Source of the DNA: an uncultured Lachnospiraceae bacterium
GTDB lineage: Bacteria; Bacillota; Clostridia; Lachnospirales; Lachnospiraceae
DNA length: 35,890 nucleotides
Reading direction: 5' to 3'
NCBI GenBank assembly: GCA_947570615.1
Contig: CANOVJ010000043.1
Coordinates: 1 to 35,890, forward strand
This document shows, piece after piece, positions 9,419-34,993 of this stretch (the first letter of the stretch is position 1; the number at the start of each line of letters is the position of its first letter). The notes beneath the pieces were generated by a model. It was not told the DNA's origin, did not search any database, and saw nothing but the letters and a program-made list of their open reading frames with translations. The translations under genes were made by a program, and so were the position numbers.

Positions 9419-11020
9419 TCACATTATATCCGGGCTTTTCACCGAATGCGTAGGTTTCCTGATATTGGCCGGCGGAAAGGACATAAAATTATGGTATCCA
9501 TGCGTCTCCAGAAAGTCCTCATACTTCGCGGGCGCCATGATCGGTGTCCCACACACCTCCAGATATGTTCCCTCGCCAAACAATTCCTTCGGGAATTTCA
9601 TGTGAAAGCACTTTGTCCAGCCATTCGACTCATAATAGCATGCACATTCCTCTTTACTGTTCCATCGGCGGAGCTTCTCATACATCCGGCAGATCCAGCT
9701 TAAAGGGAGTAATTTCCCTGCCCTGGAAGTCACATTGATAATAAAACGGGTTGCCATGCTTTCATTTTTATAAGTACCATAGTCGATAAAGGCCCTGTGC
9801 CCCATTCCAAGTCCATAGACACCCCTTATTAATGTGGTTATTATTTTATGCTTTGTCTCATTGTCGCTGGCCTTATCCAGAACATAAATATCCATCGATA
9901 CATGATCCGGCACGCCGTTGGTCATTTTGGAGGAGGCCTTTTTAAATATGTTGTTAGGCACTTCTTCCCTCATATATACAAGTCTTGTCATAAAATCCAG
10001 AAATACCCCATTCCCCATCTGGTCATAATCCAGAAATTTAAAATCGCCTTCCTTCCACTCCTGATCCACATGGGTCTTCAGCGCGTCAAAATCCTCCCTG
10101 GTCATCGCCACATCCACATCGTCGTCCCAGGGGATAAACGCATGATGTCTGACTGCTCCGATCAGGCTTCCGCAGATCAGATAATATTTCAGTTCATATT
10201 TCCTGCACACCCTGTCAAACTCTTTGAGCAGCTTCAGCAATATTTCATGTGACTTTCCCAGATATTCTCTCTCCTCCTTCAGGATAACGGCATATTCATC
10301 CGTGCGGGCAAACTCCGGCTCATAGCACATGGGCCTGTAATCAACATCGCCCATCCGACGCAGTTGCTCCGCTACAGGAAAATAGTCCTTACAGCACAAT
10401 ACGATAAACTTTTTCTTCAGATCTGCTTCTTTCAGGACATCCGGGGCCTTGATAGACACTCCCCGCCTGCGTGTTCCCCACTTCTCCTGTGAATTATCCA
10501 CCGCATATTCCGGAGGATATTTCTCCCCATAGCGTTCCATATACGCATCAAAATAACGGCCCGTCCCAAACAGGATGATCTGTCTGTCGAAATGAACGTT
10601 TTCAAGCGCATCTTCCAGTGGATCCGGATCAGAGCCCATCGATTCCGGGGCCATCAGAATCATATCCGCCCCATTTTCCTTCAGACAGATTCTATCCTGT
10701 TCGTACAGTCTTCCATACTCAACTCCCGCGAAACAGACATCATATCCGATCTGCCGGGCACTGTCCTGTTTGCAGATATTATCCCAGCCGATCTCCACCA
10801 CTTCATCCACATATCTGAGAGCTTCCAGAACCTCTCTGCGCTCCTTAAACGCAACTTCCGCGCGGCGGTTCTCCATGCGCAGAAACAGATCGTCCGAAAC
10901 CAATCCTACTACCAGCTTTTCGCAGTGTGCCCTGCAGGCTTTCAGGAGCCGGATATTCTCTCGGCTCAACTGCTCAAAAGTCCCGCAGGCGTAGCCCGTC
11001 CTGTATCGTTTGTTTTCCAT
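9419..11020 (-). CDS. LicD-family phosphotransferase with an N-terminal degenerate cytidylyltransferase and a central Rossmann module
   Basis: Three parts are visible. Residues about 5-130 resemble a TagD/GCT-type cytidylyltransferase but the catalytic H-x-G-H is lost: the motif reads GTFEQLSRENIRLL, and the later S-T-S signature is also absent, so this domain is probably catalytically dead. Residues about 148-225, from IILFGTGRYFDAY, are the Rossmann-like module shared across this locus. The remainder is a LicD domain with LICGSLIGAVRHH and IPWDDDVDVAM, the metal-binding DDD-x-D of enzymes that move phosphocholine or another phospho-alcohol from a CDP carrier onto a glycan. The second in-frame ATG (11020) is preferred because AAAGGAAC precedes it; the other ATG is at 11038. 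The intact cytidylyltransferase upstream could make its CDP donor. No choline kinase or transporter is nearby, so glycerol or another alditol is as likely as choline. Confidence 0.8.
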   Translation of the reverse strand: MENKRYRTGYACGTFEQLSRENIRLLKACRAHCEKLVVGLVSDDLFLRMENRRAEVAFKERREVLEALRYVDEVVEIGWDNICKQDSARQIGYDVCFAGVEYGRLYEQDRICLKENGADMILMAPESMGSDPDPLEDALENVHFDRQIILFGTGRYFDAYMERYGEKYPPEYAVDNSQEKWGTRRRGVSIKAPDVLKEADLKKKFIVLCCKDYFPVAEQLRRMGDVDYRPMCYEPEFARTDEYAVILKEEREYLGKSHEILLKLLKEFDRVCRKYELKYYLICGSLIGAVRHHAFIPWDDDVDVAMTREDFDALKTHVDQEWKEGDFKFLDYDQMGNGVFLDFMTRLVYMREEVPNNIFKKASSKMTNGVPDHVSMDIYVLDKASDNETKHKIITTLIRGVYGLGMGHRAFIDYGTYKNESMATRFIINVTSRAGKLLPLSWICRMYEKLRRWNSKEECACYYESNGWTKCFHMKFPKELFGEGTYLEVCGTPIMAPAKYEDFLETHGYHNFMSFPPANIRKPTHSVKSPDIM

Positions 11021-11109
11021 TTCTCTGTTCCTTTCCATTATCCCGGGTCACTGACCTCACGAATGGGCCTTCCCCCTCCTCTGGTCTGCATACCTGTCAA
11101 CACACTCCA

Positions 11110-11538
11110 CTATATAAGCCCCTGTGTGATCAATGCCTTGATCTTCGTGGAACTGGTACTCATGGTATACCGGAAGTACATCATATCCGATCCTCTCTCC
11201 TGTAGCTGCTTTCTGACCTCTATCCATTCTTCCACATGATCATCTCCGGAGAAATGGCAGTCGTAATGGTACAGCTCCCAGGCGGTCACTTTATCCGTAT
11301 TATGGTAGTCAACAGCTACCACCTCGTCCACATACTTAATGGCCTCCACGATGGCGATCCTCTCCTCAAACGGAATGTAGGGCCTTTTTTGCTTATAAAC
11401 CTCCACCATTTCGTCTGTCAGCACCCCTGCGATCAGATATTCACACTGTTCTTTGGACTTGCGCAGTAAATTCAGATGCCCAAGATGAAACAGATCATAG
11501 ACCCCCGGCACATATCCAATTGTATATTTCTTACTCAT
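11110..11538 (-). CDS. Cytidylyltransferase, TagD/GCT-like (CTP:phospho-alcohol)
   Basis: The 142-residue protein matches CTP:glycerol-3-phosphate-type cytidylyltransferases in length and motifs. GVYDLFHLGHLNLL contains the catalytic H-x-G-H, RPYIPFEERIAIV is the conserved segment around the substrate pocket, and YTMSTSSTKIK is the C-terminal nucleotide-binding signature. It would activate a phosphorylated alcohol as a CDP derivative for the two neighbouring LicD domains. The start at 11538 overlaps the stop of the upstream methyltransferase-LicD gene by eight bases and is preceded by GAGGAAAAGG lying inside that gene, so the two are coupled. The exact alcohol is not determinable; glycerol-3-phosphate is the family default, and ethanolamine- or choline-phosphate activity is less likely from the short length. 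Confidence 0.85.
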   Translation of the reverse strand: MSKKYTIGYVPGVYDLFHLGHLNLLRKSKEQCEYLIAGVLTDEMVEVYKQKRPYIPFEERIAIVEAIKYVDEVVAVDYHNTDKVTAWELYHYDCHFSGDDHVEEWIEVRKQLQERGSDMMYFRYTMSTSSTKIKALITQGLI

Positions 11539-14386
11539 CTTCCTTTTCCTCATACGCTTTTAATGCAAAGTCGGGATCCTCCAGACGGATCCACTCGCGA
11601 TGATCAATATAAATATAGTACTCCCGATAACCGGCCCTGCGCAGCCTGCTCTCCACATTCCGGATATAAATCGAACAGATTACCGGATAGATTCGGTTGA
11701 TATCGTCTGCCTGAAATTCCTCAAACCTTTCTGTGTGGATCCCGTAGAATTCCTTTTTCTCGCAGGGTCCCTCCACGTGTACGATATAAGCCGGTCTGTA
11801 CTTCTTCCCATACCTCTTAAACCAGGCCGCAATCTCAATATCATCGCCAAAGAGCACAATTTCCTTATCCGCCGCAGGCTCCGGCTTAAACAATCCGGCG
11901 AAACGCTTCTTATAATTCCGGTACGGCACATTCACCGCATAGAATGCGTGCCTGAGCATTCCTTCTGTATCCGTGGGCGCGCTCATATAGTTTCGGCCAT
12001 ACCGCTTTTTCAGGATCTCATCATACCCGGCCGGCGCTGGCAAAACCAGATCATCATACATCAGGCTAACGGTCTCCCCAAAATCCTTTGCCCGGAACAG
12101 CTTCATTTTTCCACCCCTGAACGCATAATGAGCGAAAACCCCAAAAGGCGCATTCTCTTCTTCCTCATCCCCACGGGCCATAATACCGTTGAGCCTGTCC
12201 GCCAGTTTTGACTGTGGGAACGGGAGTCCCAGATATTTATAAAACTTCCAGACCAGCAGGGGCATATCCAGAAACTCCGCAAAAAATCCATAGGCCTTCG
12301 CGTACAGAAGTCTCTGGTAAAAGCGGATCCTGCGTTCTTTCCATCTTTCCTTCCATTTATTGCAATAACCATAATCCAGCGGGAAAATATCGATGCTGAT
12401 CCCCTCGCAGCAAGGCACCCACCAGTTTTTTTCCACAATCGCAGTGGTCAGCGTATTGTGAAGCTTTACATATCCCCCATGAAAACACTTATCATTCCAG
12501 GGCGTCTGCAAAAAATAAGTACCTGAAAACTCCTCCGGCGCAACCTCCATCAGCTTCTCGTAATCCCTGCGGGGAAGCGCCACATCAATATCGTCATCCC
12601 AGGGAATCACCCCTCCGTGCCTGACCGCCCCCAGCAGAGTACCATAAATCATATAATACTGCAAATGGTATTTTTCACATACCCGCTTAAACTCCCAGAG
12701 CAGATCCATCTGCACCTCGTGTACCCTTTTCATAAGCGCTCTGTCTCTGGGAAGCCTTTGCACTGTCCTGCCTGTCATACTCAGGGAATATCTGTTGTCC
12801 AGCATCTTCCTGAAATCTTTTCCGAGCCATTTCATGGGCTGGTTATCTACCTGCGCCTGGAACTCCTCCTCCTTTTCAAGGCAGATCTTCCACATTTCTT
12901 CGGAAATCCCGTATCTTCTTTTTAACTCCTCCTGCGGAAAGTATTCCTGCATTCCCGGATTAAACAGCCAGGCATATCTGAGCGCCCGGAACATGACGTA
13001 TCTGGCCGGGAAATTTTCTCTGACGAACTCCTGATCATAAAAGAGAAGTTCCCCGTCCCGGTAAAAACAGTTCAGTGGAATCATCTCTATATAGGCCTTT
13101 TTCAGAACCGGCCCCCAGTCTGTCCCCTCTCCAAACGCGCACTCGTCAGAAAGATCGGAGGAATTAAGGATCAGCTCCCAGAGCCTGTCAAACATTTCAA
13201 TCAGACAGCCTGTATCCGCCTTCGTCTCCGCCAGCATTCCGACATATCGCTGCAGTGCCGGGGCATCGATATAGTCCATCTCCAGCGTATCCCCCCGCAG
13301 CGTCATATCCACCACCGGGATGTGCCTTTGTCCCAGCGCCTTTATCTCCTCACAGAGCTTCTCTGCATAGACGACCCCCTCCGGATACAGACAGCGCTTC
13401 CACACCTTCCCGCTGCTGGAAACCATTGTGGCAAATGATTTTTTCCTGCCCCGCAGAACAGACAACGCCGCATAGTTTATGTCAGAGCACATCCCTTCCC
13501 GGCCGGCCTCCACCAGAAAGATGTTCGCCACAAAAGGAAAGCACCCGTTTTGTGCGCTGTCCAGATAAATCTGCACATCATTGGCGAGCAGTGTACTGTT
13601 ATCCGGATAAAAGTCAGCCAGCCTCTCCAGAATATTATTCCCCGGCTGACATTCATCCGTATAGATCATCCGCGGCAATTCGCAGTCCGACACCGGATAA
13701 AAAAACTTATGACTCCCCAGCCCCGCCGACTCGAGGATCCGCTGCAGCTGCTTCCTGTGGAAGCCTCTACCCCACGTTCCTTCCGGATATCCCGCTATCC
13801 CGTCAAAAGGAATCCCTGTATGAGGCTCTCTTTTGCCGCACAGATACTGAATCCCATAGAGATTGTTCACGGTCAGCAGGATCCGGCCGTCCGGCTTCAG
13901 GTATTCCATGACAAGCTCCAGATACCGTACGTAATCCGCTTCCCTGGCGCTGCCCTTTGCCGCCTTCTCCAGACATCCGAACAGGATAATATAATCAAAT
14001 TTTTCTTCAAAGGTTATCTGCGCGATGTCTCCGGCAATCACTGTAAGGTTATCCCGCCCTCTGTATCTTTCAGCGATTGCCCTGGCACGAAAAACAGAGT
14101 TCTCCGTCACCGTAACCTTCCTGGCCCGGTCACAGAGAGCTCCGGTTATAGCCCCCATCTCGCCCTCCACCTCCAGTATCGAGGCATCCTCCTTAAACGG
14201 ATACCACCGGATCGACGCCCCTCTGAAATCACTCAGATGATGAGACACAAAGGCGCGTTCATCCGGTTCTGTAGCCTCGGAGTAATCCTCATTCCCGGAA
14301 TTTCGGACAATATAGTCGTATATGATCTTATCCTGGTACGATACTGCTTCCTCTTTACTTTTGAATGCAAGGTTCAGCTCCGCCAT
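11531..14386 (-). CDS. Four-part fusion: SAM methyltransferase, kinase-like region, LicD phosphotransferase, Rossmann-like module
   Basis: At 951 residues this is the largest protein in the window. Residues about 60-230 are a class I methyltransferase: ILEVEGEMGAITGALC is the SAM loop and FDYIILFGCLE the strand-4 region. Residues about 310-520 are uncertain; the pair MIPLNCFYRDGELLFYDQEF faintly resembles the catalytic and metal loops of aminoglycoside/choline kinase folds, but the catalytic aspartate is not obvious. Residues about 555-790 are LicD, with MIYGTLLGAVRHGG and IPWDDDIDVALPRRDY near 597-612. Residues about 837-930, from IVLFGDDIEIAAWF, are a divergent copy of the shared module. 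The protein could both methylate and phospho-decorate a glycan. The stop overlaps the cytidylyltransferase start, and its own ATG follows the previous gene by three bases. Confidence 0.75.
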   Translation of the reverse strand: MAELNLAFKSKEEAVSYQDKIIYDYIVRNSGNEDYSEATEPDERAFVSHHLSDFRGASIRWYPFKEDASILEVEGEMGAITGALCDRARKVTVTENSVFRARAIAERYRGRDNLTVIAGDIAQITFEEKFDYIILFGCLEKAAKGSAREADYVRYLELVMEYLKPDGRILLTVNNLYGIQYLCGKREPHTGIPFDGIAGYPEGTWGRGFHRKQLQRILESAGLGSHKFFYPVSDCELPRMIYTDECQPGNNILERLADFYPDNSTLLANDVQIYLDSAQNGCFPFVANIFLVEAGREGMCSDINYAALSVLRGRKKSFATMVSSSGKVWKRCLYPEGVVYAEKLCEEIKALGQRHIPVVDMTLRGDTLEMDYIDAPALQRYVGMLAETKADTGCLIEMFDRLWELILNSSDLSDECAFGEGTDWGPVLKKAYIEMIPLNCFYRDGELLFYDQEFVRENFPARYVMFRALRYAWLFNPGMQEYFPQEELKRRYGISEEMWKICLEKEEEFQAQVDNQPMKWLGKDFRKMLDNRYSLSMTGRTVQRLPRDRALMKRVHEVQMDLLWEFKRVCEKYHLQYYMIYGTLLGAVRHGGVIPWDDDIDVALPRRDYEKLMEVAPEEFSGTYFLQTPWNDKCFHGGYVKLHNTLTTAIVEKNWWVPCCEGISIDIFPLDYGYCNKWKERWKERRIRFYQRLLYAKAYGFFAEFLDMPLLVWKFYKYLGLPFPQSKLADRLNGIMARGDEEEENAPFGVFAHYAFRGGKMKLFRAKDFGETVSLMYDDLVLPAPAGYDEILKKRYGRNYMSAPTDTEGMLRHAFYAVNVPYRNYKKRFAGLFKPEPAADKEIVLFGDDIEIAAWFKRYGKKYRPAYIVHVEGPCEKKEFYGIHTERFEEFQADDINRIYPVICSIYIRNVESRLRRAGYREYYIYIDHREWIRLEDPDFALKAYEEKEDE

Positions 14387-14389
14387 CGC

Positions 14390-15640
14390 TTAAATACCGG
14401 GCTGCACAAGCGTATTCAGCGGGATCAGCCTGCTGTGCGTCTTATCCTGCAATGCCGCCTGGACAGATGCAAATTCCAGATACGGTGTGACGATAATCGC
14501 ATCTACCGCAGGAAGATCTTCTCCCGGCAGATACACCGGTACCTCTCCCGATTCCCCCTTCTTCTGTTTATCTATAAAATATTTGACGGGGATCTGTGTT
14601 CCCTTCAGATCCTCATACAGCATTCTGCCGTGATTTCCCGCCCCATATATCGCTACCGACTGATAACCTGCCTCCGCCAGCCGTCCCGCCACGGAGCCGC
14701 CGCTCAGCTTTAGCCGCATCCAGTTACACATAAGCTGATAAAAACTTCCCTTACGGTTCGTCTGCGCTCTCCACTTTTCGATTTCCTGTTTCTGATATTC
14801 CAGTAGCTTCGCAATCCGTTCCGGGCTGTCCCCGCAGGCCCGTATCAGTTCCGCATCCAGCTTCTCCTGCGGTATCTCCTCCCGTTCCTCCTCTATATAC
14901 AGGCGGTAATAATTTCTGATCTGATCTGCCCGGTCCAGTTCATCGAGATATCTGGAAAACAGCTGAAGTCTTTCCCTCAGTTCCACCTCTCTCTGCCGGG
15001 TCATTCCATCATACATAGTCCAGTTTTCCGAGAGCACTTCCTCCACACTGACCAGGCTACACCCTCTCTGATACATCCCCCTCAGAAGCAGCTCCCAGTC
15101 GGTGTTTGTAGCCATTTCCTCATTGAACAGCCCGATCTCCTCCAGAAATTTCTTCCTGTAAAGAGACGCGCTGGCATTTGCCAGACTATGGAGCAGAATT
15201 TCTTCTCTGCTTTCACAGGCAAAGTCCGGCTTAATCGGGAGCTCTCTCCATCCGAACCTGATATGCCTCTTATAGCGGCTGTAAATCACATCCACCTGCT
15301 CCCGGGACTGTTCCAGCTCCCCGGCAAAAATCTCCAGCTTCCGGGGATACCAGATGGCATCGCTGTCCAGAAAGGCCACATACTCTCCCCTGGCCTCCCG
15401 GATCCCCGTATTCCGAGAATGTCCCACACTGTGCTGTCCGTCTGCCGGATGACAAATATAACGAAGGTTCTCATACGCCTGCGACTCAATATACGCTCTG
15501 GTTCCATCGGTGGAGCCATCGTCTACCAGGATCACCTCCAGCGGCTTTTTCGTCTGCGCGCGGACGCTGTCCAGCGCGCGCTTTACTTCATATTTTCTGT
15601 TTCTCGTGGTCACAATAACCGAAATGTCTGTCGTCTTCAT
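14390..15640 (-). CDS. GT2 glycosyltransferase with C-terminal Rossmann module
   Basis: The N-terminal GT-A domain has ISVIVTTRNRKYEVKRAL, the loop DDGSTDGT and the DxD-type site FLDSDA, so it is a cytoplasmic family 2 transferase using a nucleotide sugar. A charged helical stretch (about residues 230-300) leads to a linker with a conserved tryptophan (CNWMRLKL) and then the shared module from VAIYGAGNHGRMLYEDL, with YFIDKQ as second strand and DAIIVTPYLEF as late strand, to the C-terminus. The same W-linker and module, aligned without gaps, occur in the products of 19344-20834, 22146-23741 and 23747-24223. It is followed after three bases by the methyltransferase-LicD gene. Sugar specificity cannot be read. 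Confidence 0.85.
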   Translation of the reverse strand: MKTTDISVIVTTRNRKYEVKRALDSVRAQTKKPLEVILVDDGSTDGTRAYIESQAYENLRYICHPADGQHSVGHSRNTGIREARGEYVAFLDSDAIWYPRKLEIFAGELEQSREQVDVIYSRYKRHIRFGWRELPIKPDFACESREEILLHSLANASASLYRKKFLEEIGLFNEEMATNTDWELLLRGMYQRGCSLVSVEEVLSENWTMYDGMTRQREVELRERLQLFSRYLDELDRADQIRNYYRLYIEEEREEIPQEKLDAELIRACGDSPERIAKLLEYQKQEIEKWRAQTNRKGSFYQLMCNWMRLKLSGGSVAGRLAEAGYQSVAIYGAGNHGRMLYEDLKGTQIPVKYFIDKQKKGESGEVPVYLPGEDLPAVDAIIVTPYLEFASVQAALQDKTHSRLIPLNTLVQPGI

Positions 15641-15654
15641 CTTCCTCTACCGCT

Positions 15655-17853
15655 CTACCAGAATATTTTCGCCATGGGAACCCCCATCCTTATCAGCTCC
15701 TGCTGAATCTCCTGCACCAGCTTCTCGCTGGCCACACCGATCAGTACATAATCAAACGCTGTCTCCAGTATCCGCTCCGGCGGGGAAATCTCCATCTCTG
15801 CCGTCACGCAGGCCGCACAGTTCTTATCCACCCACAGTACCACTCTGGCGTCCTTATTTTTCATCAGTCTGCGGAACATATTCCGTCCTCTTTTGCCTGC
15901 GCCATACAGAATAATCCTTCCCTTTACTTCCCGGAAATAGTCCCTTCCTCTGCCGGTTCCGGGCATGTTCAGGGACTGGTAATACTCTGCCGCTTCCCGC
16001 TCTCCGGCAGTCAGCCGAAGCAGCGAGAACATCAGATTATGCCCTGGATACCAGTCCTCCATTGGGGTTTTATACAGATACAACGCCCTTAACTGCTCAT
16101 CCGTAAGCCTGGGCGCATAGAAATCCAGTCCCGCATTGGTCCCCTCCTGGGAAAAGGGCAAATCCCCGATAAAGTCCTGTACCTCCGGCTCCGGATCCTT
16201 ACTGATGTGATCGATATAAGCCAGTGAAAGCGCCGAGAGCTCCTCTCCCTGGCATGACCAGTTCCTGCACATCTCCTGTGCGAAAGCCAGAATCCCGTCC
16301 ACATAATCCGCATATCCTTCGCTCATATACCCCTGGCCGGCCCCATTCAGCACAGGTGCCCACTTTCCATTCTCATCCTGCCGATATCCAAGCGTCTGTC
16401 CGTGGGGAGCCCGGGTAATCGTCTCCATAATCGGATCCAGCTTTCTGCCCGTGTACTTGTAGAAAATATTGCCGGGAGCCTGCACCTCTGTCATGCTTGC
16501 CATGGAATAAAAAAAAGTAATCACCGGCTCTCTATAGAAGTCTGTTACCAGCCTCTGCATACAATACTGTGTAAAACCAGTGCCGTTCATCTCCACAAAG
16601 GCAATCCTGCCCTCCGCTGATGAAATTTCCTGTCGGAGATACGCCTTCACCCGGTATCGAAGCGTTTTATTCCTTTCCCCGATCTTCTGCCATAGGCTCT
16701 CGTCTGACAAAAGAATCTCTTTTACTCTCTCCCTCTCTCTTCCGGAGTATTTTCTCCCTTTCCGCCTGAACAGCTCAGGAAAATACTCTGACAGTTCCTC
16801 CGGGGCCATATGCAGATCCTCTGTCACCTCGTCAAAGGAGGCAAAATTGACATTATACAGCAACCAGTCTCTGAAATCATCCTTATTTAAACTGACAGCA
16901 GGCGCCCTCCAGGCATATCTGGAGCCGTACAGATAACGCGTCTGCAGATCAAGCTGCTGCTCTGCGATAATCACATCTGCTATCTTCTTTAGAAGATAAC
17001 CGTCTCTGGCCACAAAAAACAGGGCGCCCATTCCCTGCCTTAAAGCCTCCTGCAGCACCCACAAAACATACCCATACAGAACGGGGCCTGCGAGGGATAC
17101 TCCCATCCGCCACTCTGCCGTGTTCCGCTTCTGAATCGTATTTCTGACTGTTCCCAGCACCGCCTGAACCGCATACTCTTTTCCGTGGCGTTGCAGCATT
17201 TCCTTCTCAAAGCGGGAAAAGATATAGCCTGTACATAACTCGCTCCGGGCTCCCATCCTCTGTGACATGACGTCATCCGCCACGGGATTGTCGCCAATAT
17301 GCACCCATTCCCACGTGTCGACGCCGTACTTTTCAAGGAAATAAGCAAACAGCCTGCCGCTTCCCTTCATCCGGTCCAGATCGCCGGAAACCAGAATCGG
17401 AATCTCCCCAAACACAGGATCCGCCTTCATCAGCATTTTGCGGATGTACTCTGTGGGAAGATACATGTCAGAGAGAAGGTAAACATCGTGCTCTCTGCGC
17501 AGCTCTTTGAGTTTCTCAATATTCTCCCGGATCGGAATACAGTTTTCCAGCTCCACCGCCAGCTCCAGATCCATAAGGCGGGCGACAGCGCGCTCCGACA
17601 TATGGTTCATATATGCCATGGCAGCGTATATTCTGTCTAATGTGACATCCTCCCGTCCGGCCTGACGCGCCCATATCCGCGCCTCCACTTCCGCGTTTGT
17701 CCTGAAATCACAGAAATTCTTTTTCAGATGCAGAGGAATTTCCCTGTAATCGTCCTGCTCCGAGAGGTGTCTTTGCATAATCACAAAGATTCCCGTAGGA
17801 TCTGCGGTAGTGCGGGTGATCAGGGTGTCGAATATGTCAAATGTGTATACCAT
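15655..17853 (-). CDS. Large HAD-like protein with C-terminal Rossmann module
   Basis: The 732-residue protein starts with MVYTFDIFDTLITR, a HAD motif I in which the second catalytic aspartate is replaced by phenylalanine (D-x-F). Later HAD motifs YLLSDMYLPTEYI and HIGDNPVADDV are present. It is therefore probably not an ordinary phosphatase; related large proteins are common in glycan loci of clostridia and their function is unclear. A central region (about 260-600) contains FFVARDGYLLKKIADV and YLYGSRYAWRAPA, a pattern seen repeatedly in that family. The C-terminus (about 643-732, from IILYGAGKRGRNMF) is the shared module with WVDKN as second strand. ATG follows an AAGGAAA ribosome site. 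Downstream of it the genes are G+C richer; upstream of it they are A+T richer. Confidence 0.7.
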   Translation of the reverse strand: MVYTFDIFDTLITRTTADPTGIFVIMQRHLSEQDDYREIPLHLKKNFCDFRTNAEVEARIWARQAGREDVTLDRIYAAMAYMNHMSERAVARLMDLELAVELENCIPIRENIEKLKELRREHDVYLLSDMYLPTEYIRKMLMKADPVFGEIPILVSGDLDRMKGSGRLFAYFLEKYGVDTWEWVHIGDNPVADDVMSQRMGARSELCTGYIFSRFEKEMLQRHGKEYAVQAVLGTVRNTIQKRNTAEWRMGVSLAGPVLYGYVLWVLQEALRQGMGALFFVARDGYLLKKIADVIIAEQQLDLQTRYLYGSRYAWRAPAVSLNKDDFRDWLLYNVNFASFDEVTEDLHMAPEELSEYFPELFRRKGRKYSGRERERVKEILLSDESLWQKIGERNKTLRYRVKAYLRQEISSAEGRIAFVEMNGTGFTQYCMQRLVTDFYREPVITFFYSMASMTEVQAPGNIFYKYTGRKLDPIMETITRAPHGQTLGYRQDENGKWAPVLNGAGQGYMSEGYADYVDGILAFAQEMCRNWSCQGEELSALSLAYIDHISKDPEPEVQDFIGDLPFSQEGTNAGLDFYAPRLTDEQLRALYLYKTPMEDWYPGHNLMFSLLRLTAGEREAAEYYQSLNMPGTGRGRDYFREVKGRIILYGAGKRGRNMFRRLMKNKDARVVLWVDKNCAACVTAEMEISPPERILETAFDYVLIGVASEKLVQEIQQELIRMGVPMAKIFW

Positions 17854-23741: not shown

Positions 23742-23746
23742 ATATC

Positions 23747-26556: not shown

Positions 26557-27567
26557 TCACCATTCATATAATTGATATTTACGGATATAATATGCCAACA
26601 TGAAAAAACTCTTCCTTACACAAAAATATTCTATCCTTTCTCCCCCTTTCCCATATGTTATCGCATCCTTATAAAATATGTCCTCCGAAAGCATTTTATA
26701 GAGCTTATGAATATTAACCGTATATCGCCGTTGTGTTTGAACTTTTGAATTTAAACATAGCCTGATTTGCTCCAAATATGATTTGCAAAAAAGTATCTTA
26801 TCCTTATCACTAATTTGATTGTGATTGGTTAATTGATATAGCAAAATATAAGTCTTGTATATGTTCGCATAATTATAATTTCTACTTTGTTTAGATAACG
26901 AATTGCAGGTATCTTTCCGATAGTAGTACATAACCCTCTTTTGAACATAAATTTTTTTACAACGCAGTATATAACTCAGGCAAAAGTAAATATCTTCATA
27001 ATACTTCCATTTTTCATTAAACCTGATTCCATATTGCTCTATAATGCTTTTTTTATAAACCTTAGTTCCAATTGCATGCAAAGTACTTGAGTTGAACAGT
27101 CTCATCATAATACCATTCAGCTCACCATACTGAAACACTGTGTCATTTATGAATGGATAATATTGTTTTTCTTTTACTTTTCCGTTATTTTTAACATTCT
27201 GATATCCGCACAGATACGCATCAACAAAATCCTTGTCTAACCTGGACACCGCATTCTCCAGATAATCAGATTCAATATAGTCATCACTGTCAACAAAGAG
27301 AATATATTCTCCTTTAGCAAGATCCATCCCCGCATTTCTTGCTGACGAAACTCCTTTATTCTTTTGATGAACACATAAAATGTTATCGTTTTTACGAGAA
27401 TACTCATCACATAGTTCTTCACTTCCATCATCGGATCCATCATCAACAAGAATGATTTCCGTGTTTTTATATGTCTGATTTAGAACACTTTCCACACAAA
27501 CTGTAATATAACTTTTTGATTGATAAACGGGAATGACAATGCTAACCATTTTTCTAATATATTCCAT
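26557..27567 (-). CDS. GT2 glycosyltransferase without the Rossmann module
   Basis: This is a compact family 2 transferase of 336 residues. VSIVIPVYQSKSYITVCV begins the GT-A domain, DDGSDDGS is the nucleotide loop and FVDSDDY the metal site. The C-terminal 150 residues are a helical region rich in K and Y that ends at YEW, with no module. It is one of only a few proteins in the block lacking the module. Start choice between ATG 27567 and ATG 27549 is open; neither has a strong ribosome site and both keep the complete domain. It overlaps nothing and lies 16 bases after the GT4 gene. Sugar specificity is unknown. Confidence 0.85.
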   Translation of the reverse strand: MEYIRKMVSIVIPVYQSKSYITVCVESVLNQTYKNTEIILVDDGSDDGSEELCDEYSRKNDNILCVHQKNKGVSSARNAGMDLAKGEYILFVDSDDYIESDYLENAVSRLDKDFVDAYLCGYQNVKNNGKVKEKQYYPFINDTVFQYGELNGIMMRLFNSSTLHAIGTKVYKKSIIEQYGIRFNEKWKYYEDIYFCLSYILRCKKIYVQKRVMYYYRKDTCNSLSKQSRNYNYANIYKTYILLYQLTNHNQISDKDKILFCKSYLEQIRLCLNSKVQTQRRYTVNIHKLYKMLSEDIFYKDAITYGKGGERIEYFCVRKSFFMLAYYIRKYQLYEW

Positions 27568-27583: not shown

Positions 27584-28786
27584 TTAAGCCTTCCTAATAC
27601 AATTTTTCCTGTACTTATGGTTTTCGATAACATATGTATATAACTGCACAAGTTTTACCACTACCTTTTCTGGCTTCAGTTTATCTATCCGTCTCTTTGC
27701 CCATTTTCCCATTTTCAGCTTATCGGCTTCGCTCATGGAAACTGCCGTCTGCATTTTATCCAGCAAATCCTGAGCATCCCCTATCCTGCACAGCAGGCCA
27801 TTTTTACCATGTACAATCAGTTGTTCGAAACTTGCACCGTCCGTCCCTATCACTACTCTTTCAAAAAACATTGCCTCAATACATGCGTTCGATAAATTCT
27901 CCATTAGTGAAGGCAGAACCACAAAATCAGCATTACGAATAACAGGATAAAGTTGTCTGTGTCCCAACGCATTTGAAATAATAATTCTGTCAGCATTTTT
28001 TCCTGCTTTTTCATGCAATATTTGTATTGGACTCTGTCCACAAATGCTTCCTGCATTCCCGATAAAAACGAAAAAGTAGTCAGGATTATCCTCTAAGAAT
28101 TTTCCGAGAATTTCTGCAATAACCAAAATCCCTTTTTCTGCATATAGTGTTCCAAAAAACAATACATACTTTTTTTCTTTTAAATAGGAGTCAAAATACT
28201 CGTAATCATATTCCTCCACATCATTTAAAAAAGGAGATTCTATTACTTTTACGCTTCTGTGACAATCATTGCCAAATGCTATGGCGTTATTTTTGCTTGG
28301 TGAAAAAATTGCATTACATTTTTTTGATGACAGTTTTTCAATAAAGGCAATTAATTTTACCGTTGTCGGAGAATATGTCTGATAGGATGAAAATGCCGTC
28401 CTGGCATAAGAAGACAGCCTTAGCACCGACGGAACATTTTCATGGTAAAACAAGGCGATCCCATATAATGAAGTGAATTGGATAATATCAATATCCGTTT
28501 GCTTTAGCAAATCCTTTATTTTAGAATTTAACGAATAACCTGTCCGCAATGCATATAATACATAATTCCATGCCGGTGACTTATAATTGCGATATATTCG
28601 TACTCCCACTGTCCAGATTTCTATCCCCTGCTCTACCCTATAGTCATCCCATTCTCCCGCAGCAAGAATAATTGGCTTATGGCCCAACTGTACCAATGCC
28701 AGAGATACACGATATAAATAGTTGGGGAAACCGGTGGTCGGTCGTCCCCGTTTAGGATAATCCGTTGATACAAATAGTATATTCAT
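27584..28786 (-). CDS. GT4 glycosyltransferase
   Basis: A 400-residue GT-B family 4 transferase. MNILFVSTDYPKRGRPTTGF opens the N-terminal domain and the C-terminal domain has FGTLYAEKGI, the E-x7-E signature in ENLSNACIEAM and ASFEQLI after it. The ATG at 28786 has TGAGG eight bases upstream and sits at the true domain start; the frame is open to 28810 and would overlap the preceding stop. It shares ENLSNACIEAM and ASFEQLI exactly with the GT4 product of 32595-33845, so the two are probably paralogues with related donors. It has no Rossmann module. Confidence 0.85.
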   Translation of the reverse strand: MNILFVSTDYPKRGRPTTGFPNYLYRVSLALVQLGHKPIILAAGEWDDYRVEQGIEIWTVGVRIYRNYKSPAWNYVLYALRTGYSLNSKIKDLLKQTDIDIIQFTSLYGIALFYHENVPSVLRLSSYARTAFSSYQTYSPTTVKLIAFIEKLSSKKCNAIFSPSKNNAIAFGNDCHRSVKVIESPFLNDVEEYDYEYFDSYLKEKKYVLFFGTLYAEKGILVIAEILGKFLEDNPDYFFVFIGNAGSICGQSPIQILHEKAGKNADRIIISNALGHRQLYPVIRNADFVVLPSLMENLSNACIEAMFFERVVIGTDGASFEQLIVHGKNGLLCRIGDAQDLLDKMQTAVSMSEADKLKMGKWAKRRIDKLKPEKVVVKLVQLYTYVIENHKYRKNCIRKA

Positions 28787-28799
28787 TTTATCTGCCTCA

Positions 28800-29930
28800 T
28801 TATATTGCATCCACTATCAGTTCTCTCAATCTGCTGTATAGTAAATAATCCACATCCCTTTTTAATCCCTTCTCCATAAGCTGTACTTCTATCTCATTTT
28901 CATACTCAGTAGAAGAGATAATTACCATATCCTTACTGGCACCCAATTTTTCCGGATTACATATTCTGATTCCGTCCATGTAATTTCCCCATACTTTTTC
29001 ATCATTGTCCCAAATCTGTGCTATACGAATACCAGCTTTTTTTAAAATACTGATCACCTGCATTCCCATCACGCCGCATCCGAATACTGAATAACATTCA
29101 CAGGGCAAAATCTTTCTTATTTTCGTTAAAATACTGTCATCCAGGTCAAGTATGCCACTCGTCAAAATACTCTGCATTCGGTATTTATATCGGTCACGGA
29201 CATTTTCAAGTTCTATAAGCTCTTTCCACTCCGCTTTCTCGCAGTCTGAAAGTTCTCTGTTTCTTTTCAGGGCAAGGAGCGACACCTTCTTTCTCTCCAT
29301 CAGATGAATGTCGAGCATCTCATCTTTTGTGGAGATTCCTCCATAACTGAAATTACACAACACTTTGTCTGTAACTGCAACAGACACATAGTTATCAAAC
29401 ATCCTCAACAACCAGTCATAGTCTGCCGCAATCTGAAATTGCGTATCAAACTTTCCATATTCTTCAAAAAGTGATCTTCTGACAAACATCGCCGGATGGG
29501 AAAATCCCATCCTGATACGAAGTTGTTGTTTCATCTTTTTTTCTTTAATATGGCTTCTTGTAATATGCCCATTTTGATGAATATACATCTCTCCACATAA
29601 AATCTGCATTCCATCCTTCACAAACTGTGTTGCGACTTCAGATAAAATATTCTCCGGATACCAGTCATCACTGTTTAAAAACGCTACTATTTCTCCGGTT
29701 GCCCGTTCAAGTCCTTTATTCATAGCATCATAAATACCCTGATCTGATTCGCTTACCCAATACGAAATATTCTTCGCATATTTTTTTATGATTTTTAACG
29801 TCCCATCTGTGGAACCGCCATCGATCACTATGTATTCCACATTTGGGTAGTCCTGTTGTATTACACTTTTAATTGTCCTTTCAATTGTCGTTTCACTGTT
29901 ACAACATACTGTAATAATTGAAAATTTCAT
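28800..29930 (-). CDS. GT2 glycosyltransferase (WcaA-like) with C-terminal Rossmann module
   Basis: The GT-A domain opens with FSIITVCCNSETTIERTI and carries IDGGSTDGT and the metal site FLNSDDW, the pattern of the WcaA-like subgroup of family 2. The acceptor half ends near residue 245. The shared module follows from YSVFGCGVMGMQVISIL, with QIWDND as second strand and DMVIISSTEYE as late strand; it lacks the W-linker found in other C-terminal copies. It follows the previous GT2 gene by 18 bases and precedes the GT4 gene by 13. Nucleotide-sugar substrate not determinable. Confidence 0.85.
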   Translation of the reverse strand: MKFSIITVCCNSETTIERTIKSVIQQDYPNVEYIVIDGGSTDGTLKIIKKYAKNISYWVSESDQGIYDAMNKGLERATGEIVAFLNSDDWYPENILSEVATQFVKDGMQILCGEMYIHQNGHITRSHIKEKKMKQQLRIRMGFSHPAMFVRRSLFEEYGKFDTQFQIAADYDWLLRMFDNYVSVAVTDKVLCNFSYGGISTKDEMLDIHLMERKKVSLLALKRNRELSDCEKAEWKELIELENVRDRYKYRMQSILTSGILDLDDSILTKIRKILPCECYSVFGCGVMGMQVISILKKAGIRIAQIWDNDEKVWGNYMDGIRICNPEKLGASKDMVIISSTEYENEIEVQLMEKGLKRDVDYLLYSRLRELIVDAI

Positions 29931-29948
29931 TTCTTATCTCTTATTTCC

Positions 29949-31133
29949 CTATAAAAATTCAAAACCATATTTTTCTTTTAAATATTTTTTACTTTCTCTT
30001 ATTCTCATTTCATCAAAACGTATTGCTTCATAACGTTTCCCCAATTCTCCTTCTAACAGCTTATGGTCATGTACCAGACATTTTATCCCCATATTGCCAA
30101 CTTTAAACCCCTGCATATTGGCACGATAGATAAATTCTATATCCTCATTCACAAAAATTTTTTCATCGTACCCGTTCATCTTCATAAAAAAATCTTTTCG
30201 CATCAGCGAAGCGCCTCCCGAGGTATATGTACACAGCATCGGTTCCCACATATCTCTCCCTTCACAGAATTGCATATCATTCAGGCAGGTAAGTTTCTTA
30301 TTTCCTGATTCATCAAATACAAACTCCAGATTACTGCCATAATTAACAACCCTTCTCACCCGTGCATTATAATAGGGAAGTCCCCAGATGCTACAGCCCA
30401 GTTGACTGATATCCTGGTTCATCTTTAAAACCGGATTTCCTGTGAGGTACATATCGTTGTCGAGCTGAAAGATCCATTCGGTTTTGCATTCCCTGTTAGT
30501 CATATTCTTGCCAATCGGAATCGGATAGTGTCTGTCAAATTTCAGAACTCTCCACGCCAATTTCATTCTCTGCAGTTTTCGCTCTAAAATGCGATATTCC
30601 TCCTGATCTGACCCATTGTCTCCAATCAATATTTCTCCCTTATATTCCGGCATAAACTCCTCGATTGAAGCAAGCAGCCTCACAGTCAACTCTGCCCTGT
30701 TGTAGGCTAATATGGAGACGGTCATATTTTCGCCATTTTCTCCGACATCTGTTCGGCTTCCCTGGAATATGTTTGAATATGATGCCAGGTAGTCTTTCCT
30801 GTGCTGGATTGCATATCTGCCATCTACAACCTCCACATCTTTTAGCTCTGGGCTTGCCTTTATCTGCTTATATATTTCATCAAAAGCCGCCGAAGTAACC
30901 ATAATTACAAAATCATGATCCTCTTTTAGATGTATAAGTTCATTAAAACTTCTTACCTGAAAAGATCTGCCTGCTACTTCAATCTGTTTCCCATGCTTAT
31001 TGATGTCATTATCAATCACAGCAAGTATCCTTCCACATAAATCTTCTTCTGCCCAGAAATATTTGCGCAGTTCGAAAATCTTTCCGGCTCCAAAGCATAT
31101 TATCAGTTTATTCTTTAACCGCTCCTTTTTCAT
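29949..31133 (-). CDS. GT2 glycosyltransferase with N-terminal Rossmann module
   Basis: The first roughly 115 residues are the shared module (LIICFGAGKIFELRKYF, AVIDND, DFVIMVTSAAF). A family 2 domain follows from about residue 137: MTVSILAYNRAELTVRLL, the loop GDNGSDQEEY and the metal site QLDNDMYL. Near the C-terminus are acceptor-domain features (NEDIEFIYRANMQGFKVG). ATG at 31133 follows GGGGAA. The 81-bp gap to the WcbI-like gene upstream is A+T rich and shows no clear promoter. The domain order here is the reverse of that in the GT2 gene immediately downstream, although both are family 2 enzymes. Confidence 0.85.
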   Translation of the reverse strand: MKKERLKNKLIICFGAGKIFELRKYFWAEEDLCGRILAVIDNDINKHGKQIEVAGRSFQVRSFNELIHLKEDHDFVIMVTSAAFDEIYKQIKASPELKDVEVVDGRYAIQHRKDYLASYSNIFQGSRTDVGENGENMTVSILAYNRAELTVRLLASIEEFMPEYKGEILIGDNGSDQEEYRILERKLQRMKLAWRVLKFDRHYPIPIGKNMTNRECKTEWIFQLDNDMYLTGNPVLKMNQDISQLGCSIWGLPYYNARVRRVVNYGSNLEFVFDESGNKKLTCLNDMQFCEGRDMWEPMLCTYTSGGASLMRKDFFMKMNGYDEKIFVNEDIEFIYRANMQGFKVGNMGIKCLVHDHKLLEGELGKRYEAIRFDEMRIRESKKYLKEKYGFEFL

Positions 31134-31214
31134 TTTCCCCTTCTATCAGATGATTTTATATGTATTCTGTTTAATGTAATGACTCAATTACTAAAGTATT
31201 ATCCCTTACAGGTT

Positions 31215-32378
31215 TTATATTCCGAAACTCCACCACAAATATTCTCTGATATATTCGTCAAAATCCATATGATCGCACATTTTCCTTCCTGTCTGGCTTT
31301 TCCTGATTTCATATTCATTCCATTCCAGTTTCAGGCATTTTTTTACTGTCGGGTAAACCGGGTTTTCAAAATCGTCTAAAAATATATTTGTATGGAGGTC
31401 TTCTCCAACAATATTTATTTCTCTCAAAATATCGATACAAATTCTCTTGAATATGATATTGGCAGGATGCCCTCCATCATAAAATAACTTATTTTTTTTG
31501 TAATTTTCCATTATGAAATCGTATATTTTTATATCCCATGCTTTCTCCCTCTTTTTGATTTTATCCATATATTTATTGAAATTATCTATAATAACATTTC
31601 TCTCTAAAGCAGAATCACCTTTACAAAAAGCAATAATATCCTCCACTTTCATTCCCTTTTCTACGCATTTATCAATTATTATGTCAGCATGGGGAAACAT
31701 ACCATTTTTCTCTTTTGCATTATTGATCGCTTCATTCCTCCTGTTCCATGCTGCCTGAGGAAAAAATGCATTGCCCATCCCAAACAGATGGGGGATAATA
31801 ATTTCCTTCTTATTGTAGTTACCCCCCCCCAACCATTTTCCCCTGATATATACATCAGACAAAAGATAACCGTACTCATTATCCTCCTGTATGTCTTCGT
31901 GGATCCACAGGTCACAGTAATCGAAAACCTTATCAGCAATTTTTCCTTCTTTATTATTACATATTAGTGGATTGGGATAAAATTCATATTTTTCTGCAAA
32001 TTTGTTCGATGATTCCAGATAAGACTTGATAATATGCATATGGCAATTACCGTGCAAAAGAACCAATTTCTTATCAAGCCATTTATAATAAATATAATCA
32101 TCAAATTCAACTAATCCCAGTTCATTTAACTGACCAGCTAACTCCAGATAAGTTGATATCCTGCCTACAGCAATAACTATATATATTCCTCGTGTCATAT
32201 ATTTTGTAGTTGGCTCATGCACCGAATATCCCATAAACGTATTAATCTTCTTGTTATTATTAAAAAAACTCTCTATGGAAATACCCTGAGCACAAAGATT
32301 ATATGCACATTTTACAGCATCCTTTCCTGTTCCAAATATTGCAATACTTCGGTTTTGTAAGGCATTTATTGAAATCAT
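31215..32378 (-). CDS. WcbI-like polysaccharide biosynthesis enzyme with N-terminal Rossmann module and an in-frame G9 tract
   Basis: Residues about 9-100 are the shared module (IAIFGTGKDAVKCAYNL, a polar second strand, IYIVIAVGRIS). The remainder matches the WcbI family of capsule proteins, which have a GDSL/SGNH-like fold and were proposed to be acyl- or acetyltransferases binding CoA. LLHGNCHMHIIKSYL near residue 110 holds the signature G-N-C, and FYDGGHPAN near residue 300 holds the other catalytic histidine. A run of nine G (C9 at 31822-31830 on the plus strand) encodes L-G-G-G near residue 184, and an A8 run lies further on; both keep the frame here. ATG follows GGGAG by eight bases. 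It would acylate a sugar of the glycan, by inference from family. Confidence 0.75.
   Translation of the reverse strand: MISINALQNRSIAIFGTGKDAVKCAYNLCAQGISIESFFNNNKKINTFMGYSVHEPTTKYMTRGIYIVIAVGRISTYLELAGQLNELGLVEFDDYIYYKWLDKKLVLLHGNCHMHIIKSYLESSNKFAEKYEFYPNPLICNNKEGKIADKVFDYCDLWIHEDIQEDNEYGYLLSDVYIRGKWLGGGNYNKKEIIIPHLFGMGNAFFPQAAWNRRNEAINNAKEKNGMFPHADIIIDKCVEKGMKVEDIIAFCKGDSALERNVIIDNFNKYMDKIKKREKAWDIKIYDFIMENYKKNKLFYDGGHPANIIFKRICIDILREINIVGEDLHTNIFLDDFENPVYPTVKKCLKLEWNEYEIRKSQTGRKMCDHMDFDEYIREYLWWSFGI
31822..31830. repeat. Homopolymer C9 (G9 in the coding strand) inside the WcbI-like gene
   Basis: Nine consecutive C on the plus strand sit in the middle of the WcbI-like coding region, read in frame as TTG-GGG-GGG-GGT. 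It is the longest G/C homopolymer I see in the window. Gain or loss of one base would shift the frame about halfway through the protein, so it is a candidate contingency tract. Confidence 0.8.
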
Positions 32379-32462
32379 ATATACAACTCCCGAACATAAT
32401 TATCATTTCGTTTACCTATGCAATTACAGTAATATTAAAATATGAATAAATATGGTTCACGA

Positions 32463-32588: not shown

Positions 32589-32594
32589 TATAGA

Positions 32595-33845
32595 TTACCA
32601 TTCCTGCATTACTTTCTGATAAAAGCTCAAGTACTTTTCATATATTATATCAGGGCTGAGTAAATGAACTCTTTCTCTGCCTTTTAAAATTATTTGATTT
32701 TTATCACCGTCACTCATCCTTAATGCTTCGTTAATCGCATTTAAATACGAATCCGGATTATCTCTTTCACACAAGAACCCACTAATCCTATCATCAATCA
32801 GTTGTTCAAAACTTGCGTGATTCGTAGCCACCACAATCTTTCCCATTGCCATTGCTTCAATACACGCATTTGACAAATTCTCAATCCTTGATGGCAACAG
32901 GCATAATTGTGCATTTTGAATAAATGGATACAATTGCTCTCTCACCAGGCGTCCAACATAAATAACTCTGTCTGAATATTCCTCCGCACATCTTTCTACA
33001 TATTTATGTGCCTTTATATTATTTCCTTTTTCATCCAACAAATCTTCACTTATTCCCGCTAATACCAAATAGAAGTCCGGATAGGATTCCAAGATTTTTT
33101 TTGCGATTTGAGCTACAATGTGAGTTCCTTTCAAATACTTCAGACTTCCATAATGAATAATATATTTTTTTTCTTTCACAATTGAATCGTATACGCTGTA
33201 ATCCCAATTCTGTTCTTGAATGACAAACGGGCTTTCAAGCACTACAGCGTTTATGTCTAAATATAATTTGCACACATTGGCCAAAAGTTCACTTGGCGAA
33301 ATAACATATCTTGCCTTTTTTAAAGCATATTCTGTCAATTTATCTTTTATAGATAATTTATTAGCCTCATACCTTATATCTCCCTGAGGGGTATTAGCCC
33401 CGCGCAACATATTGCCCATATCTGACAGCCTGACTACATAAGGAATACCAGGGTTTGCTCTGACAGCAAGCGATCCCAGATTGCAAAAGTGTACAAAATC
33501 AACCTTTTCCAGTCTGTTGATTTCATCGATTTTATTTCTCACTTGTGTGCTTTTGTAAATATTAACAAAAAATCTTCTTATTTCCGTTACTTCTTCTTTC
33601 TTTCCAAATGCACAAACCTTCGCTGCCCTATCAAATGCATTCCAGACTACTTTTTTAACAAATGTTACAAATAAGGAAATGTTCTCATCAAATACTAATT
33701 TCTCATCTTTTGTCGCCGCCACTAATACAGTAACCTTATGACCCTTTAAGGCAAAAATTCTTGCCATATTTGCAGTATAACTCGCCAGGCCTCCTGACGA
33801 ATTATTTGAAGTCGCAAGTTCTGTTGTCACAAAAACTATATGCAC
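32595..33845 (-). CDS. GT4 glycosyltransferase, paralogue of 27584-28786
   Basis: This 416-residue family 4 transferase starts MHIVFVTTELATSNNSSGGL with the glycine-rich loop of the N-terminal GT-B domain. The C-terminal half has HYGSLKYLKGT, LPSRIENLSNACIEAM with the E-x7-E pair, and NHASFEQLI. The start is GTG at 33845 behind a GAGGGAGAG ribosome site. Shared motif wording with the GT4 product of 27584-28786 points to duplication within the locus. It carries no Rossmann module. It lies 47 bp after the GT32 gene. Confidence 0.85.
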   Translation of the reverse strand: MHIVFVTTELATSNNSSGGLASYTANMARIFALKGHKVTVLVAATKDEKLVFDENISLFVTFVKKVVWNAFDRAAKVCAFGKKEEVTEIRRFFVNIYKSTQVRNKIDEINRLEKVDFVHFCNLGSLAVRANPGIPYVVRLSDMGNMLRGANTPQGDIRYEANKLSIKDKLTEYALKKARYVISPSELLANVCKLYLDINAVVLESPFVIQEQNWDYSVYDSIVKEKKYIIHYGSLKYLKGTHIVAQIAKKILESYPDFYLVLAGISEDLLDEKGNNIKAHKYVERCAEEYSDRVIYVGRLVREQLYPFIQNAQLCLLPSRIENLSNACIEAMAMGKIVVATNHASFEQLIDDRISGFLCERDNPDSYLNAINEALRMSDGDKNQIILKGRERVHLLSPDIIYEKYLSFYQKVMQEW

Positions 33846-33892
33846 TTCGTCTCTCCCTCTTAAGATATTATCTTTACTATTTCTTAACTGCT

Positions 33893-34993
33893 TTAACTAT
33901 TTAAGAGTCGTTTTCGAATGTTTCTCTGAAATTTGATAAATTCCGCTTTCTCCTCTGAACTAACCCAGCTCAGTTCCGCATGGTGAATTGATACCGTTTC
34001 AGAAGAAAAATGGTTTGCTATCCCACTTGTGCCAAGAGGCGAGAGAACCTCCGGAGGATAAATAACATTTCCTTCGCGTTTCTGATAATTTCCATCAATT
34101 TTAAACTTATATTTTTCAAAAACAGGATGTTCATACCATGAGCACGAGGTCAGATTCTCTTTTCCATCATTTCCTATAAAAGCGTAACTGTCATAAACAT
34201 CCCTCAAGGCCTTTACCAGTTTATTATTTTTACATGCCCCAAACCCCAATCCCAGATTAAGTAATTTTCCAGATGCAAATCCACAAAACATTTCATCATT
34301 TAAAAGCTTATCCGGTGAAGAAATTAATTCGACATCCGTATCCAGATAAACTCCACCTTCCTGATAAATAATATCCAGTCTTGCATAGTCCGGAACGAAT
34401 CCCCATCTTTTGCATTCATATGCCTCTCGCATATATCTGTTTTTCTTCACATCATAATTGCTTTCATCCCATCTGATAATTTCATAATCAGGGCAATATT
34501 TTTTCCAGGAATCCATATACCGTAATAAATGATCAGGTATTGGAGCATGCCCAAACCAACAATAATGAATTTTTTTAGGTATTAGTTGCTCCCCTTTTGT
34601 ATATTCGAACTGTTGTTTATCAACACAATCATCTAAAAGTCTTCCTAAATAACAGTCCAATCCATTCAGGTCTTTTATTGCATCCAATTGTTCGATAATT
34701 GTCCATGCAGAATAAACCGCAGAGATTATAAGTATGACATTTTCGATTCCCTCTTTTTTTACTGCATTGATAAATGTTTCAACAGAAATAATTCTTATCT
34801 GCTTTCCATATAATTCAAGTTCTTTATTATATAAATCACTGTTATTATCAATTATTGCTTCGAGATTGTTCTCCAAATGATACGTGTTGCACAAATACCC
34901 TGCTCTTTTACCGGCTCCGAACATATATAGCTTTTTATGTTTTATCTGCTCATAAAAATACCCTGTACTTTTATTAACGATATTTATCATCAT
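33893..34993 (-). CDS. GT32 glycosyltransferase with N-terminal Rossmann module
   Basis: Residues about 17-115 are the shared module (LYMFGAGKRAGYLCN, AIIDNN, VILIISAVYSAW). A GT32 domain follows: IPKKIHYCWFG near residue 130 is the family N-terminus, RWDESNYDV and DYARLDIIYQEGG are typical, and YLDTDVELI near residue 215 is the DxD sugar-binding site. GT32 enzymes transfer mannose, galactose or similar sugars in polysaccharide and capsule assembly. ATG at 34993 follows AGGAGAA. The end SIHHAELSW is also usual for the family. Donor sugar is unknown. Confidence 0.85.
   Translation of the reverse strand: MMINIVNKSTGYFYEQIKHKKLYMFGAGKRAGYLCNTYHLENNLEAIIDNNSDLYNKELELYGKQIRIISVETFINAVKKEGIENVILIISAVYSAWTIIEQLDAIKDLNGLDCYLGRLLDDCVDKQQFEYTKGEQLIPKKIHYCWFGHAPIPDHLLRYMDSWKKYCPDYEIIRWDESNYDVKKNRYMREAYECKRWGFVPDYARLDIIYQEGGVYLDTDVELISSPDKLLNDEMFCGFASGKLLNLGLGFGACKNNKLVKALRDVYDSYAFIGNDGKENLTSCSWYEHPVFEKYKFKIDGNYQKREGNVIYPPEVLSPLGTSGIANHFSSETVSIHHAELSWVSSEEKAEFIKFQRNIRKRLLNS

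Follow-up and report, generated by a model that had tools for sequence, protein, structure and literature searches.

A Rossmann-type module on most proteins of a Lachnospiraceae glycan cluster and its membrane-anchored stand-alone copy: a candidate nucleotide-binding accessory domain

The closest described systems

The accessory domain of WbaP and PglF (PF13727) is a Rossmann-like domain added to glycan enzymes, and in this respect it resembles a module of about 95 residues encoded by 15 of the 19 genes between positions 9419 and 34993 of contig CANOVJ010000043.1 (C43) of an uncultured Lachnospiraceae bacterium (assembly GCA_947570615.1, a 4.05 Mb draft in 112 contigs). The window analyzed here is the whole stretch of 35,890 nucleotides, positions 1 to 35,890 of that contig. 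The solved structure 3nkl, which we take to be a relative of PglF-type dehydratases, presumably carries PF13727 as well. WbaP carries PF13727, and in its published description this domain holds most of the inter-chain contacts, almost entirely via a β-hairpin; the isolated domain was stabilized by uridine mono-, di-, and triphosphate (UMP, UDP, and UTP) in a screen, and the enzyme was inhibited by UMP (PMC10942596). EpsZ, a relative without the β-hairpin, was modeled as a dimer formed by strand augmentation when a partner protein was present (PMC12802240). In WbaP the domain lies behind a four-helix membrane bundle, whereas the module is found on many mostly soluble enzyme families and as a stand-alone copy behind one helix. 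No match to PF13727 was reported for the window proteins (E ≤ 0.1) or for a set of 80 modules (E ≤ 0.01; no partner class contributed more than three, and part of the 109 listed were omitted by hand).

Other relatives are known from different settings. Rex and TrkA are nucleotide sensors; from Rex, a repressor that senses nicotinamide adenine dinucleotide (NAD(H)), the module differs in having no DNA-binding domain and in its partners. C2185-like_N (PF22674) and the solved protein 2g6t from Clostridium acetobutylicum are further relatives, for which our literature search found no function paper; PF22674 matches 13 of the 80 modules (E ≤ 0.01) and no window copy, and it finds three places in the bacterium's own genome, two of them over the cut-off (both on contig C60), versus 43 for a profile built from the window. 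PglD_N (PF17836) matches two window copies below its cut-off (18.4 and 15.0 versus 23.4 bits) and passes at one place on contig C8; the scan of window proteins showed nothing like the acetyltransferase partner found in PglD. Finally, 2py6, an FkbM methyltransferase of Methylobacillus flagellatus with an N-terminal Rossmann domain, differs in domain arrangement from our model of the window's FkbM protein (10.7 Å root-mean-square deviation over both domains), and one literature listing showed no function paper for it. Single fusions are thus already known as solved structures (2py6 and 2g6t), and the fold is common; the literature search returned no account of a glycan cluster in which most of the larger proteins share one module of this kind and a membrane-anchored stand-alone copy accompanies them.

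A module family on unrelated glycan enzymes

All 19 genes of 9419-34993 lie on the minus strand, with spacing that ranges from a 23-base overlap to a 216-base gap, and four of them are module-free (11110-11553, 26557-27567, 27584-28810, and 32595-33845). A preliminary description of this DNA had assigned one module to 15 of 20 proteins; the 15 carriers are present, but the 20th gene (35026-35889) falls outside the span. The 15 segments were cut out and aligned, and each was scored with a profile built from the other 14 (leave-one-out). Fourteen of the 15 were recovered with 11.5 to 54.3 bits, and 11 further window proteins scored alongside them, including those of the four module-free genes of the span, reached at most 2.2 bits in every run. 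The copy of 11531-14386 failed, with −1.1 bits; it rose to 25 bits only when an iterated profile had this copy in its seed. The preliminary view of a homologous Rossmann module on unrelated enzymes, in N-terminal, internal, and C-terminal positions, holds, and that the window copies form one family is well supported by these profiles. The copies, with their leave-one-out scores, are as follows.

10283-10600, minus strand: module, internal between the cytidylyltransferase and LicD domains of 9419-11038 (residues 147-252); 18.7 bits.
11564-11881, minus strand: putative module, the weakest copy, C-terminal on 11531-14386 (methyltransferase-like plus LicD; residues 836-941); −1.1 bits.
14393-14677, minus strand: module, C-terminal on the family 2 glycosyltransferase (GT2) 14390-15640; anchored-copy subfamily with W-helix; 48.1 bits and alignment.
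15658-15936, minus strand: module, C-terminal on the HAD-like protein 15655-17853; 25.7 bits and HAD match.
17877-18173, minus strand: module, C-terminal on the GT2-like protein 17874-19289; V-S replaces D at the end of strand 2; 14.0 bits.
19347-19625, minus strand: module, C-terminal on WbsX 19344-20834 (PF14307); anchored-copy subfamily; 31.4 bits.
20866-21168, minus strand: module, C-terminal on GT2 20863-22047; 22.0 bits.
22149-22442, minus strand: module, C-terminal on GT4 22146-23741; anchored-copy subfamily; 50.3 bits.
23747-24223, minus strand: membrane-anchored stand-alone module, whole gene, 158 residues (module residues 65-158); 54.3 bits, relatives, alignment, and model.
24158-24208, minus strand: GxxxG-type stretch predicted to span the membrane in the stand-alone module, at about residues 6-22; hydropathy 2.24.
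25022-25333, minus strand: module, N-terminal on the FkbM methyltransferase 24242-25333; 36.3 bits and an AlphaFold model with a predicted template modeling score (pTM) of 0.86.
26222-26536, minus strand: module, N-terminal on 25352-26536 (earlier labeled fucosyltransferase-like; no Pfam match over the cut-off); 11.5 bits.
28803-29114, minus strand: module, C-terminal on GT2 28800-29930; 24.8 bits.
30807-31124, minus strand: module, N-terminal on the GT2-like protein 29949-31133; 21.0 bits.
32049-32366, minus strand: module, N-terminal on WcbI 31215-32378 (PF18588); 17.0 bits.
34634-34951, minus strand: module, N-terminal on 33893-34993 (PF04488, GT32 type); 15.9 bits.

A profile from the 14 good segments (the 11531-14386 copy omitted) gave 43 matches in the own genome at E ≤ 0.01: the 14 window segments that it was built from, plus 16 on contig C8, 10 on C60, two on C44, and one on C13. 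Of the 29 places outside the window, 28 lie on C8, C60, and C44 amid glycan genes (named by eye, with Pfam for some). The C13 protein, read by eye, is probably the NAD-sensing repressor Rex, so that the profile tells the module apart from its closest relatives only incompletely. On 325 open reading frames (ORFs) from 20 stretches of other genomes, hand-picked as module-rich, a window-only profile scored bimodally: 170 ORFs had no match or fewer than 10 bits, four had 10 to 15 bits, and 151 had at least 15 bits. Divergence is large (mean column identity 21% over the 80 modules). The domain is not confined to the family: in a sample of the phylum, 19 of 299 genomes match at E ≤ 1e-8, and only two of the 19 are the own genome and another from its family.

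AlphaFold2 models of two of the 15 window copies, the 23747 gene and the FkbM gene at 24242, both give a Rossmann domain with high confidence, as the preliminary description had anticipated, and a minimal nucleotide-binding-type Rossmann fold is well supported by these two models. In the profile search the best solved relatives are 3nkl (1.3e-10), Rex, 2g6t, and WbaP (about 4e-6, covering chain residues ~144-239); structure comparison of the 23747 model is led by Rex, 2g6t, and 3nkl, and KtrA/TrkA are also among the solved relatives. The module is related to the WbaP accessory domain, Rex, and PglD. The likeness to PglD_N first pointed out is real in that 17 of the 80 modules match at E ≤ 0.01, but PglD_N is one weak relative among several and not the closest.

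The ligand signature of this fold was followed over 364 modules scoring at least 20 bits. Most modules retain the first glycine, the second glycine, and the acid that closes strand 2 (G8 98%, G10 84%, and D32 81%), and G8, G10, and D/E32 occur together in 244 of them. An alignment of 17 FkbM-type proteins (15 from the main FkbM group, which has 17 members, and two from another group) has the module residues G10, G12, and D36 invariant, as are methyltransferase residues. The third glycine does vary, as the preliminary description observed in arguing against simple NAD binding in all copies, but the other two glycines and the strand 2 acid persist in most of the copies borne by enzymes, and for those nucleotide binding becomes more likely, not less. 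The late strand D-x-I-I-V-T-P, previously offered as a general feature, is typical only of the subfamily of 14390, 19344, 22146, and 23747.

To place the module among its partners, we surveyed 33 loci in addition to the window (475 ORFs; module called at a domain E-value of 0.01). The domain is found in 216 of these ORFs, one of them the Rex-like C13 protein, and the non-module parts of 170 carriers fall into 67 similarity groups, which include the C13 protein as one group and one anchored copy with an over-long predicted start. In the larger groups the module keeps to one end: C-terminal in GT2 (33/33) and WbsX (5/5), and N-terminal in FkbM (17/17), WcbI (6/6), and GT32 (6/6). The end varies in the LicD group (three and two) and in one GT4 group (four and one). 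Further Pfam partners are GT-D, DUF4422, TOD1/MUCI70, DUF268, radical S-adenosylmethionine (SAM)/SPASM, PIG-L, TylF, and others. Loci L038 to L057 were chosen via the anchored gene, so that module density and anchor presence there are a biased sample; together with the window they hold 138 module ORFs (230 residues or more) and 79 module-free ORFs (180 residues or more, a lower size floor) within cluster spans. Pfam partners were compared between 116 of the 138 module proteins and all 79 module-free ones. GT4 (PF00534) is rarer on carriers (6/116 versus 15/79, p = 0.004), GT2 does not differ significantly (21/116 versus 10/79, p = 0.33), and FkbM is commoner on carriers (15/116 versus at most 2/79). 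The 25 of 70 families listed for module-free proteins include DegT, epimerase, UDP-sugar dehydrogenase, and Asn synthase, none of which is in the 25 of 49 listed for the module set.

Two proteins carry tandem modules (L076:9529-11217, minus strand, and L083:9358-11037, plus strand); their partners, judged by eye, are a GT2 in one case and a radical-SAM-like protein in the other. In the window's cluster, the cytidylyltransferase-module-LicD gene (9419-11038), a cytidylyltransferase-like gene (11110-11553, by eye), and the methyltransferase-like/LicD/module gene (11531-14386) adjoin and are possibly a set for decoration with cytidine diphosphate (CDP)-alcohols.

The membrane-anchored stand-alone copy

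The product of 23747-24223 is made up of a hydrophobic helix at the N terminus and the module, with no catalytic domain. The preliminary description had proposed that the modules either bind one shared ligand or dock the enzymes into one assembly, and both remain live options; it listed 23747-24223 without recognizing it as a module alone behind a membrane helix, which is the most informative part for the docking option. Twenty relatives were found in genome contigs, 18 of them matching from residue 1-9 on, and the titles name Lachnospiraceae in 14 of the 20 and Blautia in one. Residues W50, Y75, G76, D100, and D123 are invariant in 39 sequences (23747, 31 further anchored copies, and seven fused modules). 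In all 32 anchored copies the ligand signature retains its first glycine and its aspartate, with G or A at the third glycine position; the second glycine is present in seven. A GxxxG motif precedes the module in 31 of the 32, whereas 300 shuffles gave 14.5 on average and never more than 21. Less weight attaches to the longer pattern Gxxx[GAS]xxx[GAS] (17/32 versus 11.8 shuffled, maximum 18). In the model one helix (residues 12-55) runs towards the Rossmann domain, and residues 1-14 have a predicted local distance difference test score (pLDDT) below 50.

Several features tie this copy to fused modules. Its W-helix also precedes the modules of 14390, 19344, and 22146, and the nearest neighbor of the WbsX modules is an anchored copy in four of five cases. 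In loci L048 and L059, relatives of the 22146 GT4 (29-30% identical) are module-free and are encoded immediately upstream of the anchored gene, suggesting that one arrangement exists in a split and a fused form; the neighbors of other anchored copies are varied. Among 298 Lachnospiraceae genomes, sampled by program and not by hand, 91 have a module match (E ≤ 1e-6) and 24 an anchored copy, here an open frame of at most 185 residues with a match starting at residue 30 or earlier, the genomes being sorted by hand. At most 16 module candidates were scored per genome, and high counts are therefore lower bounds. The anchored copy occurs in 20 of 54 genomes with at least three other modules, in three of 36 with one or two, and in four of 244 with fewer than three (zero included), and the anchor thus goes with module-rich genomes.

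Stand-alone modules also occur in other forms. Some clusters contain two or three anchored copies (L050:9325-10369, where they are direct neighbors, L057:2321-6065, and L047:2845-13741), and short stand-alone modules with no hydrophobic start lie beside enzymes at L055:8238-8678, L047:8323-8763, L038:8437-8766, and L039:13576-13926.

What the module may do

The WbaP accessory domain is the nearest relative that has been studied, and by analogy with it we tentatively propose, at somewhat less than even confidence, that the module may be an accessory domain that binds nucleotide and self-associates, regulating soluble glycan enzymes and bringing them together at the membrane. One mobile accessory domain would have become attached, in most cases at an end, to a wide range of glycan-cluster enzymes, and the enzyme-borne modules would bind nucleotide, most likely uridine nucleotides or NAD, a step that the retained signature leads us to regard as rather probable. 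Modules would pair among themselves or, in genomes that have one, with the membrane-anchored copy, and the soluble enzymes of the same lipid-linked glycan would be gathered at the membrane and tuned to nucleotide supply; of this assembly step we are doubtful. A general scaffold code for glycan assembly, in which the anchored module and its counterparts on dozens of soluble glycan enzymes would form a membrane-bound, nucleotide-gated assembly line to which an enzyme is recruited by acquiring a module, appears unlikely.

A number of results weigh against the proposal. Modules group by enzyme type (107 of 208 nearest neighbors, 13 expected) and hardly by locus (12 of 208, 7.8 expected), in a count that omits modules below 20 bits and the C13 Rex-like protein; that modules track enzyme type and not locus speaks against a locus-specific tag. 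The second glycine is absent in 25 of the 32 anchored copies, and hub and enzymes may thus not share a ligand. In 42 of the 364 modules V replaces the strand 2 acid (V-S in the examples printed, such as that of 17874-19289); 10 of the 20 such modules with a partner label sit on GT2, and this class may have a different ligand. Since the WbaP dimer is held almost entirely by its β-hairpin and no such hairpin is among the listed elements of the two module models, a different contact would be needed here. In the WbaP report, UDP-galactose (UDP-Gal) destabilized the isolated domain (PMC10942596). A plain Foldseek search with the anchored model returned no match at E ≤ 0.001. By the size and start limits given above, an anchored copy is missing from 27 of the 47 genomes that have at least four module matches; no short module ORF with a hydrophobic start was seen in 16 hand-picked stretches from 11 module-rich anchor-free genomes, and modules of the anchored subfamily sit on enzymes in genomes in which no anchored copy was found (G016, G023, G072, and G253).

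Alternatively, the module may only sense, binding nucleotide or NAD and regulating its own enzyme allosterically with no inter-enzyme contact, the anchored copy being a separate regulator. This possibility is nearly as likely as the proposed regulating and gathering role: the signature is conserved in most enzyme-borne copies, modules follow enzyme type, and the solved relatives Rex, KtrA/TrkA, and WbaP (for the last, PMC10942596) are known nucleotide sensors. It leaves unexplained, however, a conserved copy free of any catalytic domain on a GxxxG membrane helix, and it offers no account of why the module is common to so many unrelated groups of enzymes from one kind of cluster while GT4 more often goes without.

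The same anchored copy, with no catalytic domain to serve, counts against the module as a substrate grip that would hold the nucleotide part of a nucleotide-sugar and present the sugar to the catalytic domain. PglD_N and the C-terminal domain of C-methyltransferases are thought to hold the nucleotide part of the substrate, and matches of PglD_N to 17 and of Methyltransf_14 to four of the 80 modules (E ≤ 0.01) are consistent with such a role, as is the confident overall arrangement of the FkbM model (its pTM is given above). GT2, GT4, and GT32 domains, however, bind their own donor already, and the deviation of the FkbM model from 2py6 indicates that the arrangement is not conserved between them; we consider a grip distinctly improbable. 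Least probable of all is a gene-shuffled domain with a minor role in solubility or folding, kept by descent with each enzyme family: the large divergence and the different ends used in different enzyme groups fit it, but the signature is retained, the terminus is constant within enzyme groups such as GT2 and FkbM, the own-genome copies concentrate beside glycan genes, and the anchored gene is strongly conserved.

Two further groups of genes lie outside the cluster in the window. On the minus strand at 1357-2822, the overlapping frames 2244-2822 and 1357-2529 read like one multi-pass membrane protein split by a frame change. Between 925 and 7150, a thiamine-diphosphate-type enzyme, an HMGL-like aldolase with an extra C-terminal part (Pfam), a HAD phosphatase, and a cupin-like protein adjoin (names mostly by eye), possibly as a pathway to a branched-sugar precursor.

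How soluble glycosyltransferases and modifying enzymes locate a membrane-bound, lipid-linked intermediate, and what keeps flux in balance, is an open question in cell-surface glycan biology, and it is this question that the proposed role would address. A domain common to about two thirds of the larger cluster proteins (138/217 in the 21 loci, 20 of them chosen via the anchored gene), with a membrane-anchored version, offers a direct experimental handle on it, and the module could mark the pathway membership of unannotated enzymes.

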